Source of the DNA: Bermanella sp. | GTDB lineage: Bacteria > Pseudomonadota > Gammaproteobacteria > Pseudomonadales > Oceanobacteraceae | Length of the DNA stretch: 33,530 nucleotides | Direction of reading: 5' to 3' | Assembly (NCBI GenBank): GCA_002683575.1 | Contig: NYTP01000044.1 | Location: 21,705 to 55,234 of the forward strand | Shown: positions 12,000 to 33,530 of the stretch, one piece after another | Numbering within the stretch: position 1 is the stretch's first letter | How the letters are laid out: the number at the start of each line of letters is the position of its first letter | Position numbers and translations under genes: made by a program | Notes under the pieces: generated by a model | Database searches by the model: none | What the model saw: only the letters and a program-made list of their open reading frames with translations | What the model was told of the DNA's origin: nothing

Positions 12000-12830
12000 A
12001 TGACCATCAGCATTAAACAGGCCCTCCTAGAGGGCCAAGCCTTTATAACTCATTCCGATACACAAGCATTAGATGCCGAACTGATTTTATTGCACACGCT
12101 AAATGCCCATCGCAATATCTTGTTTACGGATCCAGATAAGCACCTTACCCAAGCCCAAGTCACTGACTATCGCAGCAACCTTCAGCGTCGCGAAGCAGGT
12201 GAGCCTGTTGCCTATATTTTAGGTGAGCAAGGTTTCTGGGATTTAACCTTAAATGTGGCGCCCCATACGTTGATTCCGCGCGCTGATACTGAGTCGTTAA
12301 TTGACTGGGTATTAGAGCAAGACATACAGCCCAAGCGCATTTTGGATTTGGGTACCGGTACGGGGGCCATAGCCCTTGCTTTGGCAAAAGAATTTCCAAA
12401 TGCTCATGTACTGGGTGTGGATTTAATTCCGCAAGCAGTTGAATTAGCCAATTCGAACAAAGTCAAAAACCAGTTATCGAATGTAGAGTTTTTGCAAAGT
12501 AGCTGGTTTGAACATGTGCCTAATGAACGTTTTGATTTAATTGTCAGTAACCCTCCTTATATTGATGAGCTCGATGAGCACTTATCAAAAGGGGATGTGC
12601 GTTTTGAGCCGGCTTCTGCCTTGATTGCACACAATCATGGGTTAGCGGATTTGCAGCATATTGCTAATGAATCCAAACCATTCCTCAATGAGGGAGGGTG
12701 TTTATTAATGGAGCATGGCTGGCAACAGGCGCAAGAAGTACGTGATTACTTACAAGAGTGTGGTTATAAAAATTCGGGCAGTGGTAAAGACTTGGCAGGG
12801 CAGTGGCGCTTTAGTTACGGGTTTGCTTAG
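12000..12830 (+). CDS. prmC: Release-factor glutamine N5-methyltransferase
   Basis: SAM motif ILDLGTGTGAIALALA and NPPY motif VSNPPYID; directly follows prfA. Confidence 0.95.
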   Translation: MTISIKQALLEGQAFITHSDTQALDAELILLHTLNAHRNILFTDPDKHLTQAQVTDYRSNLQRREAGEPVAYILGEQGFWDLTLNVAPHTLIPRADTESLIDWVLEQDIQPKRILDLGTGTGAIALALAKEFPNAHVLGVDLIPQAVELANSNKVKNQLSNVEFLQSSWFEHVPNERFDLIVSNPPYIDELDEHLSKGDVRFEPASALIAHNHGLADLQHIANESKPFLNEGGCLLMEHGWQQAQEVRDYLQECGYKNSGSGKDLAGQWRFSYGFA

Positions 12831-12835
12831 TCCCG

Positions 12836-13465
12836 TTACCCTTTAGGTGTCAGCTTGGTCACTTTGTTTTGATTACTCGTGATTTTTTTATTGTCTTGCA
12901 GTGCCCACTCCAGTTTAAATTCTTTCACATATGCCATGGCATCATTCATGGATTGATTCGAATGCCAAATCACTTTTTGCCCCAGAATTTTTTTATCTTT
13001 CACCGGTCGCACAACATTGTGGGGTGAAATAGGTTTGTCTGGATATTGAAGCTGACTCCACTCATTACTGACTACTTCATATTGTCGCCAATTGGTGTGG
13101 CGGTCCCAGCTGAATTTTATTTCTTGTGAAAATAACTCAAATACCGGCGTTTGAATAATATTCATTTCAATGAATACACTTTCTAAGCTGCTAATGGATA
13201 AGTTATAACCACGGGTTAAATGAATGCATTCGCGGATGGCTTGGTCAATAGAGCTTAAGTAACCTTCTCTATCGGTATAGCGGTTCAAATGATGAATACG
13301 CTGTTTATGATCACGCATGCACACACTGGCTTCACTTTCTTGAATCCACCAAACATTAGCCTGAAATGCTGATACCGGTTTACCGGGCTGAAACTGAAAG
13401 TTTGCCGGTATTAGGTTCATGGTTTCAATGCTGGCAACAGGACAGCAGCTAAGTATTTTCTTCAT
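12836..13465 (-). CDS. Hypothetical protein, convergent with prmC
   Basis: 209-aa ORF with no overlapping recognised gene; family not recognised. Confidence 0.6.
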   Translation of the reverse strand: MKKILSCCPVASIETMNLIPANFQFQPGKPVSAFQANVWWIQESEASVCMRDHKQRIHHLNRYTDREGYLSSIDQAIRECIHLTRGYNLSISSLESVFIEMNIIQTPVFELFSQEIKFSWDRHTNWRQYEVVSNEWSQLQYPDKPISPHNVVRPVKDKKILGQKVIWHSNQSMNDAMAYVKEFKLEWALQDNKKITSNQNKVTKLTPKG

Positions 13466-13913
13466 GTGATTTGCAAAGCACTCAATTGAAGTAGTTCCCT
13501 ATCTTAGTGCAAACTGCGTCACATGTATGTTATTCGATTGTAAAGTTGTGAGCTTCTCCACTTAAATAATTAAATGTCAAAGTTTAAGACATAAAAATAC
13601 CTTTAAATAACCAATTATTCTTACTGTTTTTTTTAGATAACTCGAATTTTATATTTTCCTTTTTATACATTGATGGTTTATGGGTAATCGTGAGGAGGCA
13701 ATGATATATAAATGTAAGTGTGTCTTAACTTACGAGATAAGCGTGAATTAAGTCAGACTAAGTTTGTCAGTCATGATGGGTATAGTTGGTAAAATAGCAA
13801 GCAGATACTTTGTTATTTTATTTGTTTTTTTAGAAAGAAAATGTTGCCAAAATTATCTACTGCCTTAATCAATTAGACGCTAGATTTAAATATATAGGGC
13901 AAAGGAGAGCAAC

Positions 13914-17092: not shown

Positions 17093-18577
17093 ATGACGCC
17101 AGAATTGTATACTGAGTTGTCTAAGCAAGGCTTCAATCGTATTCCGGTTTTCCAAGAAGTATTAGCTGATTTAGACACCCCATTAAGTACCTATTTAAAA
17201 GTTGCCCAAGGGCCTTACTCGTATTTACTCGAATCCGTGCAAGGGGGTGAGAAGTGGGGCCGTTACAGCATGATCGGCATGCCATGTAAGCGCGTGCTGA
17301 AGGTCTTTGCGAATAAAGTACAGATTATTGAACACGACCAGCTCATTGAAGAGCACGATGTGGATGATCCACTGGACTTCATCGCAGACTATCAAGCCCA
17401 ATTTAAAATTGCCCCTGTTGAAGGTTTACCAAAATTTGATGGTGGCTTGGTTGGGTATTTTGGTTACGACGTAGTGCGGTATGTTGAAAAACGTCTGGCC
17501 GAATCTGCCCCGGATGATGACATCGGTAACCCTGATATCCTGCTGATGCAATCTGAAGAGGTCATTGTATTTGATAACCTCAGCGGTAAGTTGTTCTTTA
17601 TTGTGCTGGCAAACCCAGAAGAAGCAGGCGGGCTTGAAAAAGCCAAGCGTCGCATCACGATTATGCGCGGACAAATTCGCCGCGCTTATCAAGGGCAAAT
17701 TGGTCAGCCATTAATTCAACCTCGCGATGTGCAAGAGTCCGACTTTGTATCCGGTTATGGCGAGCAGGCTTTTATGGAGTCTGTGGATAAAATTAAAGAA
17801 TACGTTCTGGCCGGTGACATCATGCAGTGCGTGATCAGTCAGCGTCTCACCGTGGATTTTCATGGTCACCCCTTAAACTTATACCGTGCACTTCGCACCC
17901 TAAACCCAAGCCCATATATGTATTTCATGGATTGCGGTGATCACCATGTGGTGGGTTCAAGTCCTGAAATACTGGCTCGGTTTGAAGACGGCACGATTAC
18001 CGTTCGCCCCATTGCAGGGACTCGCTACCGCGGTGAAACCCCAGAACAAGACTTAGCACTTGAAGAAGAGCTATTAAGTGATCCTAAAGAAATTGCTGAA
18101 CATTTAATGTTGATTGACTTAGGTCGCAACGATGTTGGCCGCGTCAGTAATATGGGTGAAGTGAAAGTGAGTGATCAAATGGTGGTAGAGCGTTACTCCC
18201 ATGTGATGCACATCGTCAGTAACGTTGAAGGGCAAGCTAAACCGGGTATTTCGTCTATGGACGTATTAAAAGCCGCACACCCAGCAGGCACACTAAGCGG
18301 TGCGCCAAAAATCCGTGCCATGGAAATCATCGATGAGTTTGAACCGGTTAAGCGCGGTGTATATGGCGGCGCGGTGGGTTACCTGGGTTGGAATGGCAAT
18401 ATGGATACCGCCATTGCCATTCGTACCGCGGTAATCAAAAACAAAAAGATTTATGTGCAAGCCGGTGCTGGTGTCGTTGCAGACAGTGTGCCGCGCCTTG
18501 AGTGGAAAGAAACCATGAATAAAGCACGGGCGATCTTTAAAGCCGTGGCCATGGCTGAGTCAGGGTTGGATAACTAA
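17093..18577 (+). CDS. trpE: Anthranilate synthase component I
   Basis: [35 protein letters not shown]-like region, [17 protein letters not shown]. Confidence 0.96.
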
Positions 18578-18580
18578 GCA

Positions 18581-19399
18581 ATGAATACCACGAATCTTCA
18601 GCAGCGTTTTATGTCGTTGCGCAGTAATAAAGGGTTTGAGCTGTTTGTTGTGGGTGTGATTTTGTTTTCGGCCATTGTGGTTGGTGCAAAAACCTATGAC
18701 TTACCACCAACTATGTTGAGCATCATGGTTTGGTTGGATCATTTAATTACGCTGATCTTTTTGGTGGAGTTGATTGTTCGCTTTGCCGGTGAAGAAAACA
18801 AACGCCACTTTTTTAAAAGTGGCTGGAATATCTTTGATACCTTGATCGTTATCGCAAGCCTGGTACCCGTTGATGAAAGTGAGATGGCGTTTATCGGCCG
18901 CTTACTGCGTATTTTCCGTGTGTTAAGAATGGTGTCGATCATTCCAGAGCTGCGTGTATTGTTAAACTCATTGCTCAAAGCATTACCGCAATTAGGTTAT
19001 GTGATGCTGCTGATGTTTATTATTTTTTATATCTATGCGGCCATTGGTGCAACCTTGTTTGCGCCGATTAATCCAGAACTGTGGGGCGATATTTCTATTT
19101 CATTATTAACCCTGTTTAGGGTTATGACATTCGAAGATTGGACGGATGTCATGTATGAAACTATGGAAGTGTATGGTTTAAGCTGGATTTATTATTTAAC
19201 TTTTATTTTCTTAACGGCTTTCGCCTTTTTGAATATGGTGATTGGTATTGTGGTCAGTGTCATTGAAAAAGAAAATGCCATTGAAGATGCGGCTCACTCC
19301 AATGAGCCGTCCATGGCGGATTTACATGAAGAAATTCAATCACTAAAGGCCATGATCACAAAGCTGGCCAATGATGAACCCAACAAAGGACAGTCCTAA
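18581..19399 (+). CDS. Voltage-gated cation channel, bacterial single-domain NaChBac-like ion transporter
   Basis: Six-TM topology; S4 [13 protein letters not shown] with Arg every third residue; pore-loop [16 protein letters not shown]-terminal coiled-coil tail. Confidence 0.88.
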
Positions 19400-19983
19400 T
19401 GTTATTAATGATCGATAATTATGATTCCTTTACTTACAACGTGGTTCAGTATTTTGGTGAGCTGGGTGCGGATGTTAAGGTGTTTCGAAATGATGAAATC
19501 ACCATTGAAGAAATAGAGGCTCTGAATCCAGATCACCTGGTCATCAGCCCTGGCCCGTGCACACCCAATGAAGCGGGTGTGTCGGTAGCCGCCATTAAAC
19601 ACTTTGCAGGCAAGCTACCTATTTTAGGTGTGTGTCTTGGTCATCAGAGTATTGGCCAAGCATTTGGTGGTAAAATCATTCGCGCTGGGCAAGTGATGCA
19701 TGGTAAAACCAGTGACGTTTTTCATGAAGATAAAGGGGTGTTCGCTAACTTGAATAACCCTTTTACCGCCACCCGTTATCACTCTTTAGTTATTGATAAG
19801 GACACCTTGCCGGATTGTTTAGAGGTTACCGCTTGGACACAAAATGAAGATGGCAGTATTGAAGAGATCATGGGCGTGCAACACAAAACCCTTGCCATTC
19901 AAGGGGTGCAATTCCATCCTGAATCCATCTTGACTCAGCACGGTCATGATTTATTCGCCAACTTTCTTAAAATGAAAGTCTAA
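19399..19983 (+). CDS. trpG: Anthranilate/aminodeoxychorismate synthase component II (glutamine amidotransferase)
   Basis: [57 protein letters not shown]; start overlaps the channel stop (TAATG). Confidence 0.94.
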
Positions 19984-21328: not shown

Positions 21329-22615
21329 ATGGGGCCGGCTATGGCATCGTCTTTCGATCTCGATAAACGTCACACATTGTCAACCTTGGCAAAGGTCGGC
21401 GCAGCTGGGTGTGCAATCACAGGTGCGCCTTACGTTTTTGCAAAACAGAAAACCACAATAAGAGTGCTCGGCACCCATGTCACGCTTCAAGAAGAGTTAC
21501 GACAAAGGGCCATGCAAGACCTTGGGATCGAAGTGATATTTGAACCCAGAGGCAGTGCAGCGGTGCTGCAGAAGGCATCGCTATACCCTGATACCTTTGA
21601 TTTGTATGAGCAGTGGTCAAATAGCATTAACGTGTTATGGCACTCAGGCTCCATTCAAAGTATTGATACCCGACGCATCACACACTGGGACGAAATCAAT
21701 AACCTCTCTAAGACCGGACGCTTGAGTAACGATGCACGAATGGGGGCAGGGGACGCGCCTCATAAGATTTTATATGTGCAGGATGATGATGAATTCAGCG
21801 CAACTCCCACTCAAAATGTCAGCTTTTTGCCCTATGTTCATAATGTGGATTCCTTTGGTTATAACACCAATGTTATTAAACCGGGTATCGCTTATGAAAC
21901 CGAGAGCTGGGGTTGGTTACTGGATAAAGAGCACGCGGGTAAAGTCGCAATCGTCAATGCGCCAACCATTGGCATATTTGATTTGGCATTGGCCGCACAA
22001 GCAAAAGGGTTTGTAAGCTTTAAGGATATTGGTGCCATTACCCAATCAGAAATGAATCAGCTTTTTAATATCTTAATCGAGATGAAAAAAAGTGGGCACT
22101 TTAGCGGCTTTTGGACATCGGTGCCTGAGTCAGTGAATTTTATGGCTTCTGAGCGTGTGGTGATTGAGAGCATGTTTAGCCCTGCTGTCTCGGCATTAAA
22201 TGGTCAAGGTGTACCTGTTCGTTATGCGGCACCCAAAGAAGGTTATCGTGGTTGGCATGGTGTGATGTGCCTATCTTCATCAACCCAAGGAAGGCAGAAA
22301 GACGCCGCCTATGAATACATGAACTGGTGGTTATCGGGTTGGCCTGGTGCTTTTATTGCGCGCCAAGGCTATTACATTTCTAACCCGCAGCGGTCTAAGT
22401 CTTATCTGTCACAGGCTGAGTGGGATTACTGGTACGCCGGCAAACCTGCGGCCAACGAATTAAAAGGAACCGATGGCAGGGTGTCTGTTAAAACCGGTGA
22501 CGTTCGAAATGGAGGCAGTTATGAGCAGCGTTTTAGTAATGTCGCTGTTTGGAATACCGTCATGCCCACTTATGATTACAGTTTGCAAAAATGGTATGAG
22601 TTTGTCAGTGCTTAG
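21329..22615 (+). CDS. Orphan extracellular solute-binding protein (PotD-like), possible ligand-sensing partner of the downstream kinase
   Basis: Signal-like N-terminus, type-II SBP features (FLPYVHNVDSFGYNTN, AYEYMNWWLSGWPGAFIARQGYY); no permease/ATPase nearby; 9 bp before the kinase ORF. Confidence 0.8.
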   Translation: MGPAMASSFDLDKRHTLSTLAKVGAAGCAITGAPYVFAKQKTTIRVLGTHVTLQEELRQRAMQDLGIEVIFEPRGSAAVLQKASLYPDTFDLYEQWSNSINVLWHSGSIQSIDTRRITHWDEINNLSKTGRLSNDARMGAGDAPHKILYVQDDDEFSATPTQNVSFLPYVHNVDSFGYNTNVIKPGIAYETESWGWLLDKEHAGKVAIVNAPTIGIFDLALAAQAKGFVSFKDIGAITQSEMNQLFNILIEMKKSGHFSGFWTSVPESVNFMASERVVIESMFSPAVSALNGQGVPVRYAAPKEGYRGWHGVMCLSSSTQGRQKDAAYEYMNWWLSGWPGAFIARQGYYISNPQRSKSYLSQAEWDYWYAGKPAANELKGTDGRVSVKTGDVRNGGSYEQRFSNVAVWNTVMPTYDYSLQKWYEFVSA

Positions 22616-22624
22616 GGACAGTGA

Positions 22625-25243
22625 ATGAAAATTCGGTCATTGCAGGCCCAGGTAAGCATCGTGTTATTAGTGCTGGCTGTAACACTTTTGACGCAGCTGC
22701 TCTTTGCTCGTAATAGCGTGTCGACACTGATAAAAAATCAATCAAGTCTAACGTACTCACATAGCCATGTGGGTGTGGTGTATGAACTTGAGCGTGATGT
22801 GATTGATTTACAGCGAAATCTCCTTATTTACAAAGCCACAGGTAGTGACAGTGCGATTCACCGTTTTCATACTATTATGGAATTAGTGAATGAGCAAATT
22901 CTTAAATTATCCAAGGAAGTGGGTGGCGGTAAACAATATCTGATCAATGAAGAAAACTTTTCAAGAATGGTGAGTCACCTAGCTGACTACGAGCAAAATT
23001 TCACCTCAGTGATTAATGCCAAAGACCAGCAAGAAAGCGCCATTGAAAGCATTGACAGTGATCTTGCCAGTATTGATCAATATACATCGAAAAGAAGTAA
23101 TCAAGTATCGATTGATATTAAAAGTGAAGTGGTAAGTTTAAGAGAAATTATGTCGAGTTATCTTGCGAAATTTAACCCGTTAGATATAAGTCGATTTAAT
23201 AAGAAAATCAGTAAGGTTATTTCACAGTTTACCCGCATTCAGTATTTGGATGGTGTTGAAAAAGCTAAGCGTATCAAAAAACAATTTAGGCGTCTTATTC
23301 AGTTAACCAGAGGGTATCAATTTCTGGTGAGTGTGGTGATGGCCGGATCAGCCAATGAATTTCTATTTATTACAAAAAAGATAAGAGAAGCAGCACTTGA
23401 GAAACAAGATTTAATTGAATTAGAGGCAGAACGTGCAGCCAAAGAAGCGCAATTTGTAAATGGCGTGATTAGTGTGGTTTCAATTTTAATTATTTTATCC
23501 ATTGCTTGGTTTTTATCTCGTAAAATTATTTTTCCCATTAAAAATATTACGGATATCTTTACAGTGCTATCCAGAGGCGATGATATTGATCGTATCCCCA
23601 GTGTTAATCGTAATGATGAAATAGGTGATTTAGCCAAAGCGGCAGAAATTTTCCATCAAAATAATAGCTTAACCAAAAAACTATTGGTGGAATCACAAGA
23701 TATGATTGCCACTCAAGAAGTGCTCAATATCCAACTAGAGCAGCAAAAAAAGAAAGCCGAATTAGCGGCCAAATCAAAAAGTGATTTTTTAGCGAATATG
23801 AGTCATGAAATTCGAACCCCCATGAATGGCATTGTTGGGCTGGTAGATCTTGTTTTAAAGACCAAACTAACAAACAAACAAAAGCAGTATCTTGATCGTA
23901 TTTCCTATTCTGGTCAGATCATGATGAATGTTATCAATGATATTTTAGATTTTTCAAAGATCGAAGCGGGTAAAATGGAGATCGAATCCGTTGAGCTTGA
24001 TATCAATACAATTATTGAAAATCTAATTTCATCAATGATGGTATGGGTAAACGATAAACAGTTAGATTTTAAAGTCTGGGTTTCCCCTAATGTTCCGAAG
24101 AAAATCATAGGTGATCCGCTGCGAATTAGTCAGGTTTTACTCAATTTATGCAGTAATTCCATTAAGTTTACGGACAGCGGTAGCATTATTATTAAGTTTG
24201 ATTATATCGACAATCAATTGTGTTTTAGTGTCCATGATACGGGCATTGGCATGACACAAAGTCAGCTTGATTCCATTTTTGAGTCCTTTACCCAAGCTGA
24301 TGGGTCCATTAGCCGAAAATATGGGGGCACAGGTTTAGGTCTATCTATTGTCAAGAAACTCATTGAGCTGATGCACGGAGACATCAAAGTTGAATCTAGC
24401 GTTAATGTTGGCACAGAGATATACGTATCCATTGCTTGTGATATTGCCGACCAGACGCCACTGCTTACGCCTTTGACCGGCGACCTGCCTTCGATTCATT
24501 ATGCCGGGCGAAACGGCAAGCCCTCTTATATTAAATATGTATTTGAACAGCTTCACATTCCTCTGGTTGATATCAGTACAATCCAAGGTGCACAGGTCAT
24601 AACGAGTGAACAAGAGCAATTTGTCTTATTTGAAGGAATCAAGGCACTGCCCGCTTCCTATTTATCGAGCTGTCTGAAATCCAAGGTTCAACTATTTTGT
24701 GTTTTGAACTCCAATGACAACGCAGAGAAAGTAAAAGTACGCGAAATGGGGGATATTACCGTGCTTCAACATCCGTTTTCACCCAGTCAATATGAACGCT
24801 TCTTTAGAGAGATACTTGGGGTCAATCAGTCACCTGCTGTAATATCCTCCACTCCAGTTGGCGATGTCCACGCAATGACGGGCCATGTATTACTGGTGGA
24901 AGATAACCCCATTAATCAATTAGTAGCAGGGGATATGTTAGAAGGCCTGGGGATAAGCTATGACCTTGCTGAAAATGGCATTGAAGCTGTCAAAGCGGTT
25001 AAGGAAAAAGAATATGACCTTGTCTTTATGGATGTGCAGATGCCAAAAATGGACGGCTATACGGCTACAAAAACACTAAGAGACGCGGGTTATAATGATG
25101 TAATCATCTGTGGTTTGTCAGCCAATGCATTAAAAGAAGACTTAGAGAAGGCAGAACAGTCAGGCATGAATGACTATTTAACCAAGCCTTTAATTCATGA
25201 CAGCTTAAAAGCCCTGCTTGAGAAATATTTAATTCAATCTTAG
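22625..25243 (+). CDS. Hybrid sensor histidine kinase (periplasmic helical sensor-HAMP-HisKA-HATPase-REC)
   Basis: H-box FLANMSHEIRTPMNGIVGL, N-box LLNLCSNSIKFT, G-box YGGTGLGLSIVKKL, REC VLLVEDNPINQLVAGDM...DLVFMDVQMPKMDGY...LTKP. Confidence 0.93.
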   Translation: MKIRSLQAQVSIVLLVLAVTLLTQLLFARNSVSTLIKNQSSLTYSHSHVGVVYELERDVIDLQRNLLIYKATGSDSAIHRFHTIMELVNEQILKLSKEVGGGKQYLINEENFSRMVSHLADYEQNFTSVINAKDQQESAIESIDSDLASIDQYTSKRSNQVSIDIKSEVVSLREIMSSYLAKFNPLDISRFNKKISKVISQFTRIQYLDGVEKAKRIKKQFRRLIQLTRGYQFLVSVVMAGSANEFLFITKKIREAALEKQDLIELEAERAAKEAQFVNGVISVVSILIILSIAWFLSRKIIFPIKNITDIFTVLSRGDDIDRIPSVNRNDEIGDLAKAAEIFHQNNSLTKKLLVESQDMIATQEVLNIQLEQQKKKAELAAKSKSDFLANMSHEIRTPMNGIVGLVDLVLKTKLTNKQKQYLDRISYSGQIMMNVINDILDFSKIEAGKMEIESVELDINTIIENLISSMMVWVNDKQLDFKVWVSPNVPKKIIGDPLRISQVLLNLCSNSIKFTDSGSIIIKFDYIDNQLCFSVHDTGIGMTQSQLDSIFESFTQADGSISRKYGGTGLGLSIVKKLIELMHGDIKVESSVNVGTEIYVSIACDIADQTPLLTPLTGDLPSIHYAGRNGKPSYIKYVFEQLHIPLVDISTIQGAQVITSEQEQFVLFEGIKALPASYLSSCLKSKVQLFCVLNSNDNAEKVKVREMGDITVLQHPFSPSQYERFFREILGVNQSPAVISSTPVGDVHAMTGHVLLVEDNPINQLVAGDMLEGLGISYDLAENGIEAVKAVKEKEYDLVFMDVQMPKMDGYTATKTLRDAGYNDVIICGLSANALKEDLEKAEQSGMNDYLTKPLIHDSLKALLEKYLIQS

Positions 25244-25407: not shown

Positions 25408-25422
25408 GCTTATATTTGGTGC
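25408..25422 (+). promoter_or_regulatory. Candidate NtrC-like binding site
   Basis: GCTTATATTTGGTGC: right half TTGGTGC and GC-N11-GC spacing match the NtrC site form; left half is degenerate; about 140 bp upstream of the predicted sigma-54 start. Confidence 0.35.
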
Positions 25423-25527
25423 GTCCTGATCTTAATGCATGCATCAATTTAGACTAAAAATAATTTTATAAAAAATTAATATTAATAAAACTGAGGTTTT
25501 ATGCGGGCTAGGAACAAGATTTTGTTT

Positions 25528-25543
25528 TTGGCACCAACCTTGC
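25528..25543 (+). promoter_or_regulatory. Sigma-54 promoter (-24/-12) upstream of FNT-cynS
   Basis: TTGGCAC CAACC TTGC: near-perfect match to YTGGCAC-N5-TTGC with GG and GC at the required 12-nt offset; 49 bp upstream of the FNT start. Confidence 0.78.
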
Positions 25544-25591
25544 GTTACTGGGTTAACCCTTAAACAAAAACCACAGTAGAGGCTTTAAAAT

Positions 25592-26404
25592 ATGGCTTAC
25601 ATTGAACCAAGTGAGTTTGTCACCAAGATGGTGGATGCAGGCGAATCCAAATGTTACATGTCCACGAAAGATACGTTTATTCGTGCTTTTATGGCCGGTG
25701 CCATTCTGGGTTTGGCCGCGGTGTTTGCAATTACAGTTGCAACAAAAACAGGTAGTCCAATTTTAGGCGCGTGTTTGTTCCCTGTTGGTTTTATCATGCT
25801 TTATTTAATGAAGTTTGATTTGCTAACCGGTGTGTTCACACTAGTACCACTGGCATGGTTAGATAAACGTCCAGGCATTACGCCATCACAAATTTTAAGA
25901 AACTGGGGTCTAGTATTTTTAGGTAACTTTGCAGGTGCCATGACCACTGCATTCTTTGTCTCCTTTATTTTAACCTACGGCTATAACACCGACGGTGGAG
26001 CTCTGGCTGCGAAAGTTGCTTCAATTGGTGAGTCTCGTACATTGGGTTATCAAGAGCATGGTGTTGCAGGTTGGTTTACGATTTTTATTCGCGGCATGTT
26101 ATGTAACTGGATGGTTTCAATGGGTGTGGTTGGCGCCATGATCTCTACGTCTGCAGGTGCAAAAATTGCAGCCATGTGGATGCCAGTAATGTTGTTCTTC
26201 TTTATGGGTTTTGAACACTCAATTGTAAACATGTTCCTTTTCCCGTTCTCTATGATTATGGGTGGTGAGTTTACGGTTTATGATTATCTTATCTGGAATG
26301 AAATTCCAACGGTTCTAGGTAACCTTGCTGGAGGTTTATTACTAGTCGGTTTGCCTCTTTATTATACCCATGTGAAAACCAGCCCAGAACGTCAGTTAGC
26401 GTAA
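25592..26404 (+). CDS. Formate/nitrite transporter (FNT) family channel
   Basis: FNT-like multi-TM sequence (FIRAFMAGAILGLAAVFAITV, FLGNFAGAMTTAFF, GFEHSIVNMFLFPFSMIMG). Confidence 0.92.
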   Translation: MAYIEPSEFVTKMVDAGESKCYMSTKDTFIRAFMAGAILGLAAVFAITVATKTGSPILGACLFPVGFIMLYLMKFDLLTGVFTLVPLAWLDKRPGITPSQILRNWGLVFLGNFAGAMTTAFFVSFILTYGYNTDGGALAAKVASIGESRTLGYQEHGVAGWFTIFIRGMLCNWMVSMGVVGAMISTSAGAKIAAMWMPVMLFFFMGFEHSIVNMFLFPFSMIMGGEFTVYDYLIWNEIPTVLGNLAGGLLLVGLPLYYTHVKTSPERQLA

Positions 26405-26434
26405 TCACACTTTAAATTTGAGGGAGTAATATTG

Positions 26435-26875
26435 ATGAATAAAGTAGAAATGACGGAAGCCATTATTCTTGCAAAAAAAGAGCAGTCGTTAACGTGGGAG
26501 AAAATAGGTACAGACTTAGGTATTTCACCTGTTTGGCTGACATCGGCTTGCTTAGGAATGAATAGCGCGCCCAAAGAAAAAGCACTGGCCATATCAGAAT
26601 ACTTGAGTCTGGGCAGTGACGTGGCTGAAGCGCTGATGGCCTACCCAACTAAAATTTGGGATCAAGCTGTGCCCACTGACCCACTAGTATATCGCTTGTA
26701 TGAAGTGGTTGGCGTTTATGGCGAGACACTAAAAGAAGTCATCCAAGAGAAATTTGGTGATGGCATCATGAGTGCCATCGACTTTTCCATGGATGTTGAT
26801 AAACAAGAAGACCCGAAAGGGGATCGCGTTATACTGACATTAAATGGCAAGTTCTTACCTTATAAATCATGGTAA
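26435..26875 (+). CDS. cynS: Cyanate hydratase (cyanase)
   Basis: N-terminal helical region LAKKEQSLTWEKIGTDLGISPVWLTSACLG and catalytic C-terminal domain YRLYEVVGVYGETLKEVIQEKFGDGIMSAIDF with the expected Arg, Glu and Ser. Confidence 0.96.
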   Translation: MNKVEMTEAIILAKKEQSLTWEKIGTDLGISPVWLTSACLGMNSAPKEKALAISEYLSLGSDVAEALMAYPTKIWDQAVPTDPLVYRLYEVVGVYGETLKEVIQEKFGDGIMSAIDFSMDVDKQEDPKGDRVILTLNGKFLPYKSW

Positions 26876-26903
26876 TTTCTTCTTTAAATTTCTATTTATT
26901 GGG

Positions 26904-26935
26904 AACCCTCACTCTTAATTGAGTGAGGGTTTTTT
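26904..26935 (+). terminator. Terminator-type hairpin after cynS, overlapping the translation initiation region of the next gene
   Basis: Perfect 11-bp stem AACCCTCACTC / GAGTGAGGGTT with TTAATT loop, then T-run; ATG of the next CDS at 26940. Confidence 0.88.
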
Positions 26936-26939
26936 ATTT

Positions 26940-28670
26940 ATGAAAAAACAATTAAAAATTGCTGTTGGTCAAAGCACAAGCAAGGGCCGTAAAGCGGTTA
27001 ACCAAGATAGCCATGGAGTACACATTCCAGATAACTATTTACTGGATGCAAAAGGGATTGCCATTGCCATTGCCGATGGTATCAGTAGTAGTGACGTGAG
27101 TGATATTGCCAGTCAAACGGCGGTTAATGGATTTATTTCGGATTATTATTGTACTGCTGACGTGTGGTCTGTGAAGCACTCTGCGCAAAAAGTACTGCAA
27201 GCCACTAACCTCTGGCTGTATGCACAGGGGCAAAACGGGCTTAGTCGTTTTAATAAAGATAAAGGTTATGTTTGTACGTTTAGTTCGATTATCTTTAAAT
27301 CGAATTCATTTCATATTCTGCATTGTGGTGATAGTCGCATTTATCGTTTAGCGAATAATAGCTTAGAGCAATTAACACAAGATCATAGAAGAGTGGTTTC
27401 AGAAGACACCAGTTACCTGACCCGCGCATTAGGCATTCAATCTCAACTGGATTTTGATTATTCAATGCAAAGTTTAGAGATAAACGATGTTTTTATTCTG
27501 GCAACCGATGGCATCTATGAATACATTGATGACAGTGCGATGTTGGCATTAATGTCTGAATACAAACAAGACTTAAATCTAGCTTGCGAGAAAATAATTC
27601 AGCATGCCTATGATAATGGCAGTGAAGATAATTTAACTATTCAAATTGCTCAGATACTCGAGTTGCCTTTACATCAAATCGATGAAGTACAGCAGCAGGT
27701 CGCCCGCTTACCATTGCCGCCTTTGTTAGAGCCCAGAATGGAATTTGATGGTTATCAAATCCTACGCAGTATTTATATCAGTAGTCGCAGTCATGTGTAT
27801 TTGGCAAACGATACCGATACACAGCAGCAGGTGATTCTTAAGATACCTTCGACCGAGTTAAGAGAAAATAAACCCTATTTAGAAAGCTTTTTAATGGAAG
27901 ACTGGATTGCCAAGCGTATTGATAACCCCCATGTTTTAACGGCAATAGAATCACCCAGAAAGCGGCAATACTTATATAACGTGACGGAATATATTAAAGG
28001 ACAATCATTGTCACAGTGGATCGTTGATCACCCTAAGCCAAAACTCGATCAAGTCAGGGGGATTGTTTCTCAGGTGGCAAAAGGCTTACAAGCATTTCAT
28101 CGACAAGAAATGGTGCATCAAGACTTACGTCCAAATAATATTATGATCGATGAATTTGGTACCGTGAAGATCATTGATTTTGGTGCGACTCAAGTGGGCG
28201 GTGTCATGGATATTGGCCAGAACCGAAACGCCAATGACATTAAAGGAACAGCGCAATTCACCGCGCCAGAATACTATTTGGGTGAGGGTGGCTCTCACCG
28301 TTCAGATATTTTCTCATTGGGTGTCATTACTTATCAAATGCTCACCGGTAGGCTGCCTTACGGCACCGGTGTGTCAAAAATAAAAAACCGTCGAGACCGG
28401 CAGAAGCTTGTGTATCAATCTATTTTAGAAGATCAGCACCCGTTGCCGCCTTGGGTAGACGCTGCTATCAAAAAAGCCGTCCATGTTGAGCCATTAAAGC
28501 GTTATGCAGAAGTCTCTGAATTTGTGTTTGATTTAAATACACCCAGTGCGTCTTTTTTAAAGCGGGACAAGCCGCCATTAATTGAACGTAACCCACTGGC
28601 TTTCTGGCAAGGTGTCTCGGCCATGTTGTTATGCGTGGTCATTTTTTTAAGCTATCGATTACTTGTTTAG
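26940..28670 (+). CDS. Bifunctional PP2C-type phosphatase / Ser-Thr protein kinase with C-terminal TM helix
   Basis: PP2C motifs IAIADGISSSD, LHCGDSRIYRL, LATDGIYEYID; kinase motifs VHQDLRPNNIMID, IIDFGATQVGG, GTAQFTAPEYYLGEGGSHRSDIFSLGVITYQMLTGRLPY; C-terminal hydrophobic segment. Confidence 0.92.
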   Translation: MKKQLKIAVGQSTSKGRKAVNQDSHGVHIPDNYLLDAKGIAIAIADGISSSDVSDIASQTAVNGFISDYYCTADVWSVKHSAQKVLQATNLWLYAQGQNGLSRFNKDKGYVCTFSSIIFKSNSFHILHCGDSRIYRLANNSLEQLTQDHRRVVSEDTSYLTRALGIQSQLDFDYSMQSLEINDVFILATDGIYEYIDDSAMLALMSEYKQDLNLACEKIIQHAYDNGSEDNLTIQIAQILELPLHQIDEVQQQVARLPLPPLLEPRMEFDGYQILRSIYISSRSHVYLANDTDTQQQVILKIPSTELRENKPYLESFLMEDWIAKRIDNPHVLTAIESPRKRQYLYNVTEYIKGQSLSQWIVDHPKPKLDQVRGIVSQVAKGLQAFHRQEMVHQDLRPNNIMIDEFGTVKIIDFGATQVGGVMDIGQNRNANDIKGTAQFTAPEYYLGEGGSHRSDIFSLGVITYQMLTGRLPYGTGVSKIKNRRDRQKLVYQSILEDQHPLPPWVDAAIKKAVHVEPLKRYAEVSEFVFDLNTPSASFLKRDKPPLIERNPLAFWQGVSAMLLCVVIFLSYRLLV

Positions 28671-28671
28671 T

Positions 28672-29580
28672 TCACTCATGCCAATCTTTAAAGTGTTCGA
28701 GCAGATAATCGATAGCAAGGCGGGCACGTAAGGGTAAAAAGCGGCGGTTTTTATACACAATCCAGCTGCTGGCCCCTGAGCTCCAATAATTTTGCAGCAC
28801 TGGGGTTAATATCCCTTGTTCAATGGATTTTAAAAAACTGCTCTTGGGCATATACGCAATTCCCAAGCTTTGTTCACAGGCTGTCACCACTGCATGGGCA
28901 TTATTACTGCGCCAGCGACCGTGGACTTTATAGCTTAGCTCTTTGCCTGCATCGTTAAAGCGCCAATGTTCATTATTGGAGATTAAGCAGCTGTGCTGTT
29001 TTAACTCTTTTGGGTGGGTGGGGCTGCCATGCTCATTCAAGTAACGAGGGCTGGCAGCGGCCATCATGGGGCGGTCTAGCAGTTTTCGTGCGACCAAACC
29101 TGAGTCTTGAAGTTGGCCGTATCGAATTGAAAAGTCGATGCCATCTTCAACAAAATTGACCATACGACTATTGAAGTCCATATCAATGGTGAGCTCTGGG
29201 TGCAGCTTAGCAAACGCCATTAACACAGGGGCGACAAATTGTTCAGCAAACGCACCCGCTGCGCTGACCCGCAAGGTGCCGCTGAGTTGAAGTTGCTCAA
29301 GGCTGACTTGCTCGTTGGCCTGCTGTAAGCCATTTACTAATTCTTTACACTGCTGATAATACAGCTGACCACTTTCTGTCAGGCTTACTAATCGAGTGGT
29401 TCTGGCCAGTAGCGCACTGCCAAGGCGTTCCTCTAGGCGTGAAACTTGGCGGCTCACATGACTGGTGCTCACCCCTAGCTGCTTGGCCGCGGCCGAGAAC
29501 CCCTGACTTTCGGCTACTGCTACAAACTCAATAATGCCTTCGAAGCTGTCCATATCAATCCTATTGTTGCTATTTGGCAA
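28672..29580 (-). CDS. LysR-family transcriptional regulator
   Basis: N-terminal wHTH FVAVAESQGFSAAAKQLGVSTSHVSRQVSRLEERLGSALLARTTRLVSLTESG. Confidence 0.94.
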   Translation of the reverse strand: MPNSNNRIDMDSFEGIIEFVAVAESQGFSAAAKQLGVSTSHVSRQVSRLEERLGSALLARTTRLVSLTESGQLYYQQCKELVNGLQQANEQVSLEQLQLSGTLRVSAAGAFAEQFVAPVLMAFAKLHPELTIDMDFNSRMVNFVEDGIDFSIRYGQLQDSGLVARKLLDRPMMAAASPRYLNEHGSPTHPKELKQHSCLISNNEHWRFNDAGKELSYKVHGRWRSNNAHAVVTACEQSLGIAYMPKSSFLKSIEQGILTPVLQNYWSSGASSWIVYKNRRFLPLRARLAIDYLLEHFKDWHE

Positions 29581-32586: not shown

Positions 32587-33530
32587 ATGGATATGAAACA
32601 CGCTTTAAATACAGTGGTTGCCCGCCAAGACCTTAATGAAGAGCAAATGATGGCCGTCATGAAAACCGTCATGACAGGCGAAGCCAGCGATGCACAAATT
32701 GGCGGCTTTTTAGTGGCTTTGCGCATGAAAGGCGAAACCATTGATGAAATCACAGGCGCGGCGCGTGTTATGCGTGAGCTGGCCACCCCCGTCATTATTG
32801 ACGACGAACACCTAGTGGATACCTGTGGTACCGGAGGCGATGGCGCGAATATATTTAATGTCTCCACGGCTGCAGCCTTTGTGGTGGCAGCGGCTGGCGG
32901 TAAAGTGGCGAAACACGGCAATCGCAGTGTGTCATCGACCACCGGCAGTGCCGATGTATTAGAAGCCGCGGGCGTGAATTTAAATTTAAGCGCCGAACAA
33001 GTCACCCGCGCCATTAATGAAATAGGCGTAGGCTTTATGTTTGCCCCTGCACATCATGGGGCCATGAAACACGCCATTGGCCCGCGTAAAGAATTAGCCA
33101 TGCGCACCATTTTCAATATGCTTGGCCCTATTACGAATCCTGCGAATGTGCCGAACCAAGTGTTAGGTGTATTCAACGGTGAGCTATGCAAACCACTGGC
33201 TGAAGTGTTAGGCCGTTTAGGCTCAAAACATGTGCTGGTTGTGCATGCCAAAGATGGTCTAGATGAAATCAGTTTGGCCTGCGCTACTCGCGTGGCAGAA
33301 TTAAAAGATGGTCAAGTGACTGAATATGATATCACCCCAGAAGATTTTGGTATGAAAAGCCAAAGCCTGATTGGTTTGTCAGTAGAAAGTGCCGAGCAAA
33401 GCTTAGCACTAATAAAAGATGCATTAGGTAAACGCGAAACCGAAGCCGGAATAAAAGCGGCGGACTTAATTGCGCTGAACGCAGGTGCAGCCATTTATGC
33501 GGCTAATTTGGCAAGTTCATTGGCAGAAGG
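32587..33530 (+). CDS. trpD: Anthranilate phosphoribosyltransferase, 3' truncated by window edge
   Basis: Open frame from ATG 32587 to window end; [78 protein letters not shown]. Confidence 0.95.

Follow-up and report, generated by a model that had tools for sequence, protein, structure and literature searches.

An FNT channel gene, cynS and a PP2C/kinase gene in Bermanella sp.: a candidate Ntr-controlled nitrite/cyanate channel module

In Pseudomonas pseudoalcaligenes CECT5344, cyanase is encoded in the cynFABDS cluster, which has a sigma-54 promoter, is controlled by ammonium and needs CynF for its expression (PMC6627978); sigma-54 control of cyanase has also been published elsewhere (PMC12316311). 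FNT (focA/nirC)-cynS pairs were reported in the nitrifiers Nitrospira defluvii, N. lenta and Nitrososphaera gargensis, and the FNT protein was proposed from context alone as the nitrifier cyanate transporter (PMC10753782, with reference to Spang 2012 and Palatinszky 2015); no kinase partner or sigma-54 control was noted for these pairs. In Synechococcus PCC 7002 the FNT protein NitM imports nitrite, and in alpha-cyanobacteria its gene is linked to nirA, with no kinase partner reported (PMC4390861). The adjacency of FNT and cynS genes, the idea of an FNT carrying cyanate and the sigma-54 control of cyn genes are all already known, and cyanate transport by an FNT has so far been a guess from a few nitrifier genomes. 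In the open-access literature, no description was found of an FNT-PP2C/kinase pair or of a swap between FNT and CynABD, and nothing relevant on a PP2C/kinase in nitrate assimilation.

The window analysed here is a stretch of 33,530 nucleotides from a Bermanella sp. draft genome of 3.16 Mb (about 89% complete), in which one FNT gene and one cynS gene were found. The FNT-family channel gene (25592..26404, + strand, 270 aa) is followed on the same strand by cynS, encoding cyanase (26435..26875, 146 aa), and by a gene for a PP2C phosphatase/Ser-Thr kinase of 576 aa with a C-terminal hydrophobic segment (26940..28670). From the FNT gene to the ATG start of cynS the gap is 30 bp (27 bp to an in-frame TTG at 26432), and from cynS to the kinase gene 64 bp. 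These identities and their order had been given in an earlier note on this DNA and were borne out by profile matches. The FNT protein matches PF01226 over its full length (profile positions 1-240 of 240; 221.9 bits, cut-off 34.6) and belongs by sequence to the same fold family as FocA, NirC and LCIA, whose structures are solved. It differs from FocA and NirC in falling under the cut-offs of both their models (133.8 of 290.1 and 54.6 of 293 bits, respectively) and forms a separate subfamily. CynS matches PF02560, PF21291 and TIGR00673 (169.9 bits, cut-off 113.3), and the kinase PF13672 and PF00069. As judged by eye, R87, E90 and S113 of the CynS translation stand at the places of the catalytic R96, E99 and S122 of the E. 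coli enzyme.

Compared with the described systems, the locus shares with the nitrifier pairs an FNT gene adjoining cynS, with cynFABDS a cyanase gene under a sigma-54 promoter, and with NitM of marine cyanobacteria the FNT family and a nitrogen anion uptake that is here proposed. Unlike the window, the CECT5344 cluster encodes the ABC transporter CynABD, has no FNT and no kinase gene, and includes cynF, which has no counterpart next to the genes of the window. The reading preferred here, to which we give slightly better than even chances, is that of a nitrite/cyanate channel under Ntr control and paired with a kinase of its own, which would stand in for CynABD where cynS adjoins.

Directly upstream of the three genes and on the same strand lies a gene for an extracellular solute-binding protein, followed by one for a hybrid histidine kinase with a receiver domain (21329-25243). 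Downstream, a LysR-type gene (28672-29580, - strand) is divergent from a DJ-1/PfpI gene; it was considered as CynR and rejected, scoring 89.9 of 277 bits and matching YafC and AaeR better. The module and other genes, about 12.6 kb in all, separate trpE-like and trpG-like genes (17093-19983) from a trpD-like gene (32587-33528), the trp names being given by eye and the last with a match to PF00591.

Promoter and NtrC-like sites

A sigma-54 (-24/-12) promoter, TGGCACCAACCTTGC, with GG at -24 and GC at -12, is located at 25529..25543 (+), the only exact match to TGGCAC-N5-TTGC in the whole window; the earlier note had placed its start at 25528, taking in the preceding T. With one mismatch or fewer, three matches occur in the window against 3.55 expected, and taken alone the match is modest evidence. 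The promoter is conserved in relatives: of 80 sequences, that of the window among them, 32 have TGGCA[CT]-N5-TTG[CT] in the 350 bp ahead of the first gene, compared with 0.15 in shuffled sequences and 22 of 4616 control stretches. Of 81 upstream regions, 33 contain a site resembling that of NtrC (GCACY-N5-RGTGC, at most one mismatch), where shuffles give 1.2; the distance from this site down to the sigma-54 element is often 80-110 bp. Neither number is a set of independent counts, since the loci are related.

The NtrC-like site proposed earlier for the window, GCTTATATTTGGTGC (25408..25422, +), is weak: its right half-site alone fits, with three mismatches in ten positions to GCACY-N5-RGTGC. 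Relatives carry better sites in this position. The sites of loci L008 and L036 agree with it in place and have similar letters; in two Colwellia loci a similar sequence, GATCTTATTTGGTGC, precedes the sigma-54 site by 110 bp. The genome also has an ntrC gene. Together with the conserved promoter and the relatives' sites, this supports the nitrogen control suggested before, and Ntr/sigma-54 control of the module is likely. Transcription is expected to start near 25555.

Conservation of the locus

The locus was surveyed by a scan with one genome per species, of which the best 80 loci, mostly of Gammaproteobacteria, were kept. In 73 of these 80, a PP2C/kinase gene follows the FNT gene on the same strand. 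A cynS gene is found in 37, lying upstream in 17, between the two genes in 7, downstream in 6 and convergent in 7. The conserved core is therefore the FNT-kinase pair, which stays together in many marine bacteria, with cynS as an optional partner of variable placement. A survey of FNT-cynS adjacency had been suggested in the earlier note: the association does recur and is complementary to CynABD, but it is not the conserved unit.

The CynS proteins linked to an FNT fall into two subclades of the CynS tree, mixed with unlinked ones. On the CynS tree linkage requires 8 changes, each either a gain or a loss, and on the FNT tree 20; for the unlinked label, the minima imposed by starred branches are 3 and 5, respectively. 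Both trees are quick ones with many weak branches. The cynS gene appears to have joined the FNT-kinase pair several times, and its four different placements and its origin from two CynS subclades support the preferred reading. Counting against it, among 43 close relatives whose locus lacks cynS, 27 had none found in the genome, many of these genomes being drafts; the other 16 carry cynS elsewhere.

Among the best 80 loci the FNT proteins are 79-91% identical to that of the window, far more conserved than the CynS (44-79%) and kinase (mostly 44-61%) encoded next to them, which is unusual for a transporter; an alignment of 102 rows has 89 near-invariant positions. In locus L074 (2347-2787), the gene order cynF-cynS-FNT is that of other Alteromonadales and CynS is from the other subclade, as if replaced in place. 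One draft genome, the uncultured Enterobacterales B3_Bin_27, holds two close FNT copies, L024 and L052, of which one follows cynS and the other precedes the kinase gene, possibly by duplication or in a mixed bin.

Substrates of the channel

Co-occurrence was assessed in 231 class-level genomes besides that of the window, filtered at 90% completeness, of which 21 carry FNT, 32 cynS and 110 nirB. By tests that ignore kinship, FNT-positive genomes are enriched in nirB (19/21 against 91/210 of the FNT-negative genomes, p 2e-5) and in cynS (12/21 against 20/210, p 8e-7), the latter also among nirB-positive genomes (10/19 against 11/91, p 3e-4). All 21 FNT-positive genomes have nirB or cynS. Those without cynS have nirB in nine of nine cases, and the two without nirB (G136 and G203) both have cynS near FNT. 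Where both FNT and cynS occur, they are at most about 2.5 kb apart in 11 of 12 genomes. Because of the nirB enrichment and the constant presence of nirB in FNT-positive genomes without cynS, nitrite is a likely substrate of the FNT in general; where cynS is linked, cyanate is likely as well. Calling the protein a cyanate channel, as first proposed, is too narrow, since in this good-quality sample the same FNT occurs in genomes without cyanase, all with nirB. What stands of that proposal is a likely involvement of cyanate, backed by the cynS association and the complementarity with CynABD, next to a probable passage of nitrite.

The FNT could be a channel for nitrite only, joined by cynS because a shared Ntr promoter benefits both as genes of nitrogen starvation; cyanate would then enter otherwise or arise inside the cell, and CynS would scavenge or detoxify it. 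The nirB figures fit this well, some loci have FNT-kinase genes adjoining nirB, NarK or a NIT/ANTAR regulator gene, and NitM is not inhibited by cyanate (PMC4390861), a real caution for the cyanate reading. The FNT-positive genomes that lack nirB and have cynS argue the other way, as do the complementarity with CynA-type genes and the cyanate-type regulator CynF facing cynS-FNT in relatives, and nitrite alone is considered possible but doubtful. The FNT sequence hardly changes with the presence or absence of cynS, so that no cyanate-specific residues stand out, which counts against the preferred nitrite/cyanate reading. Several alignment columns do differ between cynS-positive and cynS-negative genomes (e.g. 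199 I/V and 107 L/W); they were rejected as substrate determinants because the test ignores kinship and genomes of like cynS status cluster on the tree.

The complementarity was measured with NMT1_2 as a proxy for CynA, a family that also takes in nitrate-type binding proteins. Such a gene lies within 4 kb of none of 12 FNT-linked cynS genes (window included), as against 10 of 21 unlinked ones (p 0.005). In the window's genome, contig C14 carries the sole NMT1_2 gene found, and there is no CynA-type gene next to cynS. No CynX (TIGR00896) scored over the cut-off in the 33 genomes examined, that of the window (about 89% complete) included. In P. pseudoalcaligenes, a strain without CynBD still takes up cyanate when nitrate is present (PMC6627978), which points to nitrate/nitrite transporters and is counted for the preferred reading.

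A regulator links the two transporter types in relatives. At locus L152, a sigma-54 activator gene is divergent from an operon of a CynA-type gene, two genes of the right size and cynS, the gene order of cynFABDS in P. pseudoalcaligenes. Seven Alteromonadales-type loci (L013, L016, L036, L038, L047, L068 and L074) have a full-length homologue of this CynF-like activator divergent from cynS-FNT, in likeness to the described cluster. That of L016 (3270-5147, - strand) is a PAS/AAA/Fis protein whose sensor region is 41-52% and whose AAA domain is 61-69% identical to those of the activators at ABC-type loci, compared with 18% and 45% for NtrC of the window's genome. Upstream of several cynF-facing cynS genes, a variant sigma-54 site, TGGCA[CT]-N5-TCGC, was found. 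The same type of regulator thus faces either an ABC transporter or an FNT. This sharing, seen in relatives and not in the window, provides the strongest context evidence that the FNT may carry cyanate. At the window locus no CynF neighbour was found, which counts against the preferred reading, as does the half NtrC site.

The bicarbonate that cyanase uses as co-substrate, rather than cyanate, might also be what the FNT supplies. The solved chain nearest to the window's protein is LCIA of Chlamydomonas (9v2a, E 2e-24), a bicarbonate channel, on whose structure no paper was found in the open-access literature, and many chemoautotrophs, Thiomicrorhabdus and Hydrogenovibrio for example, have the FNT. 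LCIA is a remote match, and matches to other FNTs exist as well; nitrogen control and the nirB association, also in heterotrophs (Vibrio, Colwellia), speak against bicarbonate, which appears very improbable.

A wider claim, held tentatively and below even chances, is that the FNT with a membrane-anchored PP2C/kinase forms a widespread phospho-gated nitrogen-anion channel module of Gammaproteobacteria, a true cyanate channel that has repeatedly replaced CynABD in cyanate operons under the same CynF/Ntr control. The several positions of cynS, the CynABD complementarity and the CynF-like regulator make the cyanate question testable in cultured marine bacteria, for example in Marinomonas transparens and Catenovulum sediminis. 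The pairing of channel and kinase is also relevant to the way in which marine bacteria import nitrite and cyanate and avoid being poisoned by them.

The kinase/phosphatase

The PP2C motifs NQD, ADGISSS, GD.R, TDG and DN and the kinase motifs K, HQD, DFG and APE are conserved in 70 relatives. A C-terminal hydrophobic segment, consistent with a membrane-anchored enzyme, is present in 69 of the 70. In most loci, the FNT-adjacent kinases are about 49-61% identical to that of the window.

Between cynS and the kinase gene, a terminator-like hairpin of 14 pairs followed by a T run (26901..26934, +) was identified, which had been missed when the three genes were first described as an operon. With the hairpin in place, it is not certain that the three genes are transcribed together. 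The 3' arm of the hairpin contains GAGTGAGGG, and no other letters ahead of the kinase ATG resemble a Shine-Dalgarno sequence. Of 74 loci, 35 have a terminator-like hairpin in front of the kinase gene (shuffles give 3.1), which suggests that partial termination may damp kinase expression or uncouple it from that of the channel.

These hairpins, and gaps of up to 394 bp between the FNT and kinase genes of relatives, would also suit a kinase/phosphatase that merely follows the FNT and acts, as a separately expressed regulator of nitrogen status, on other targets. Its conserved linkage makes this unlikely: the gene adjoins FNT in the 73 loci, also where cynS is absent, and in 18 of the 21 sampled FNT-positive genomes, two of which (G154 and G259) keep it adjacent in divergent orientation. 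The hydrophobic segment and a paralogue likewise placed beside a nitrate transporter gene point the same way. Of the two targets named in the earlier note, channel and cyanase, the channel is the more likely, since the kinase stays with the FNT when cynS is missing. With this pairing there is a defined case in which a bacterial Hanks-type kinase might control a channel.

For the nitrite/cyanate channel preferred here, the following mechanism is proposed from gene context. At low nitrogen, active NtrC would let sigma-54 RNA polymerase transcribe FNT and cynS, and the FNT would admit small nitrogen-bearing anions, cyanate for CynS in this bacterium and nitrite for NirB both here and in related genomes. 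The membrane-anchored PP2C/kinase, whose expression the hairpin probably weakens, would set channel activity by phosphorylation and dephosphorylation of the FNT. The direction of the effect is presumed to be such that the channel plausibly closes upon a build-up of ammonium or of nitrite or cyanate, which are toxic. With cynS alongside, the module would replace the ABC cyanate transporter CynABD.

The paralogue in the window's genome lies on contig C137 (L005:10318-12021, - strand), directly after a NarK-type nitrate transporter gene (12168-13646, - strand), and nirB is on the same contig. The architecture is that of the window, a PP2C/kinase gene directly after an anion transporter gene, with an MFS nitrate transporter in the place of the FNT and a kinase that is 40% identical. 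Pairing of such kinases with nitrogen-anion transporters may thus be general. A second group of kinases, about 40-48% identical to that of the window and represented in the window's genome by the paralogue beside NarK, is often found on the nirB contig.
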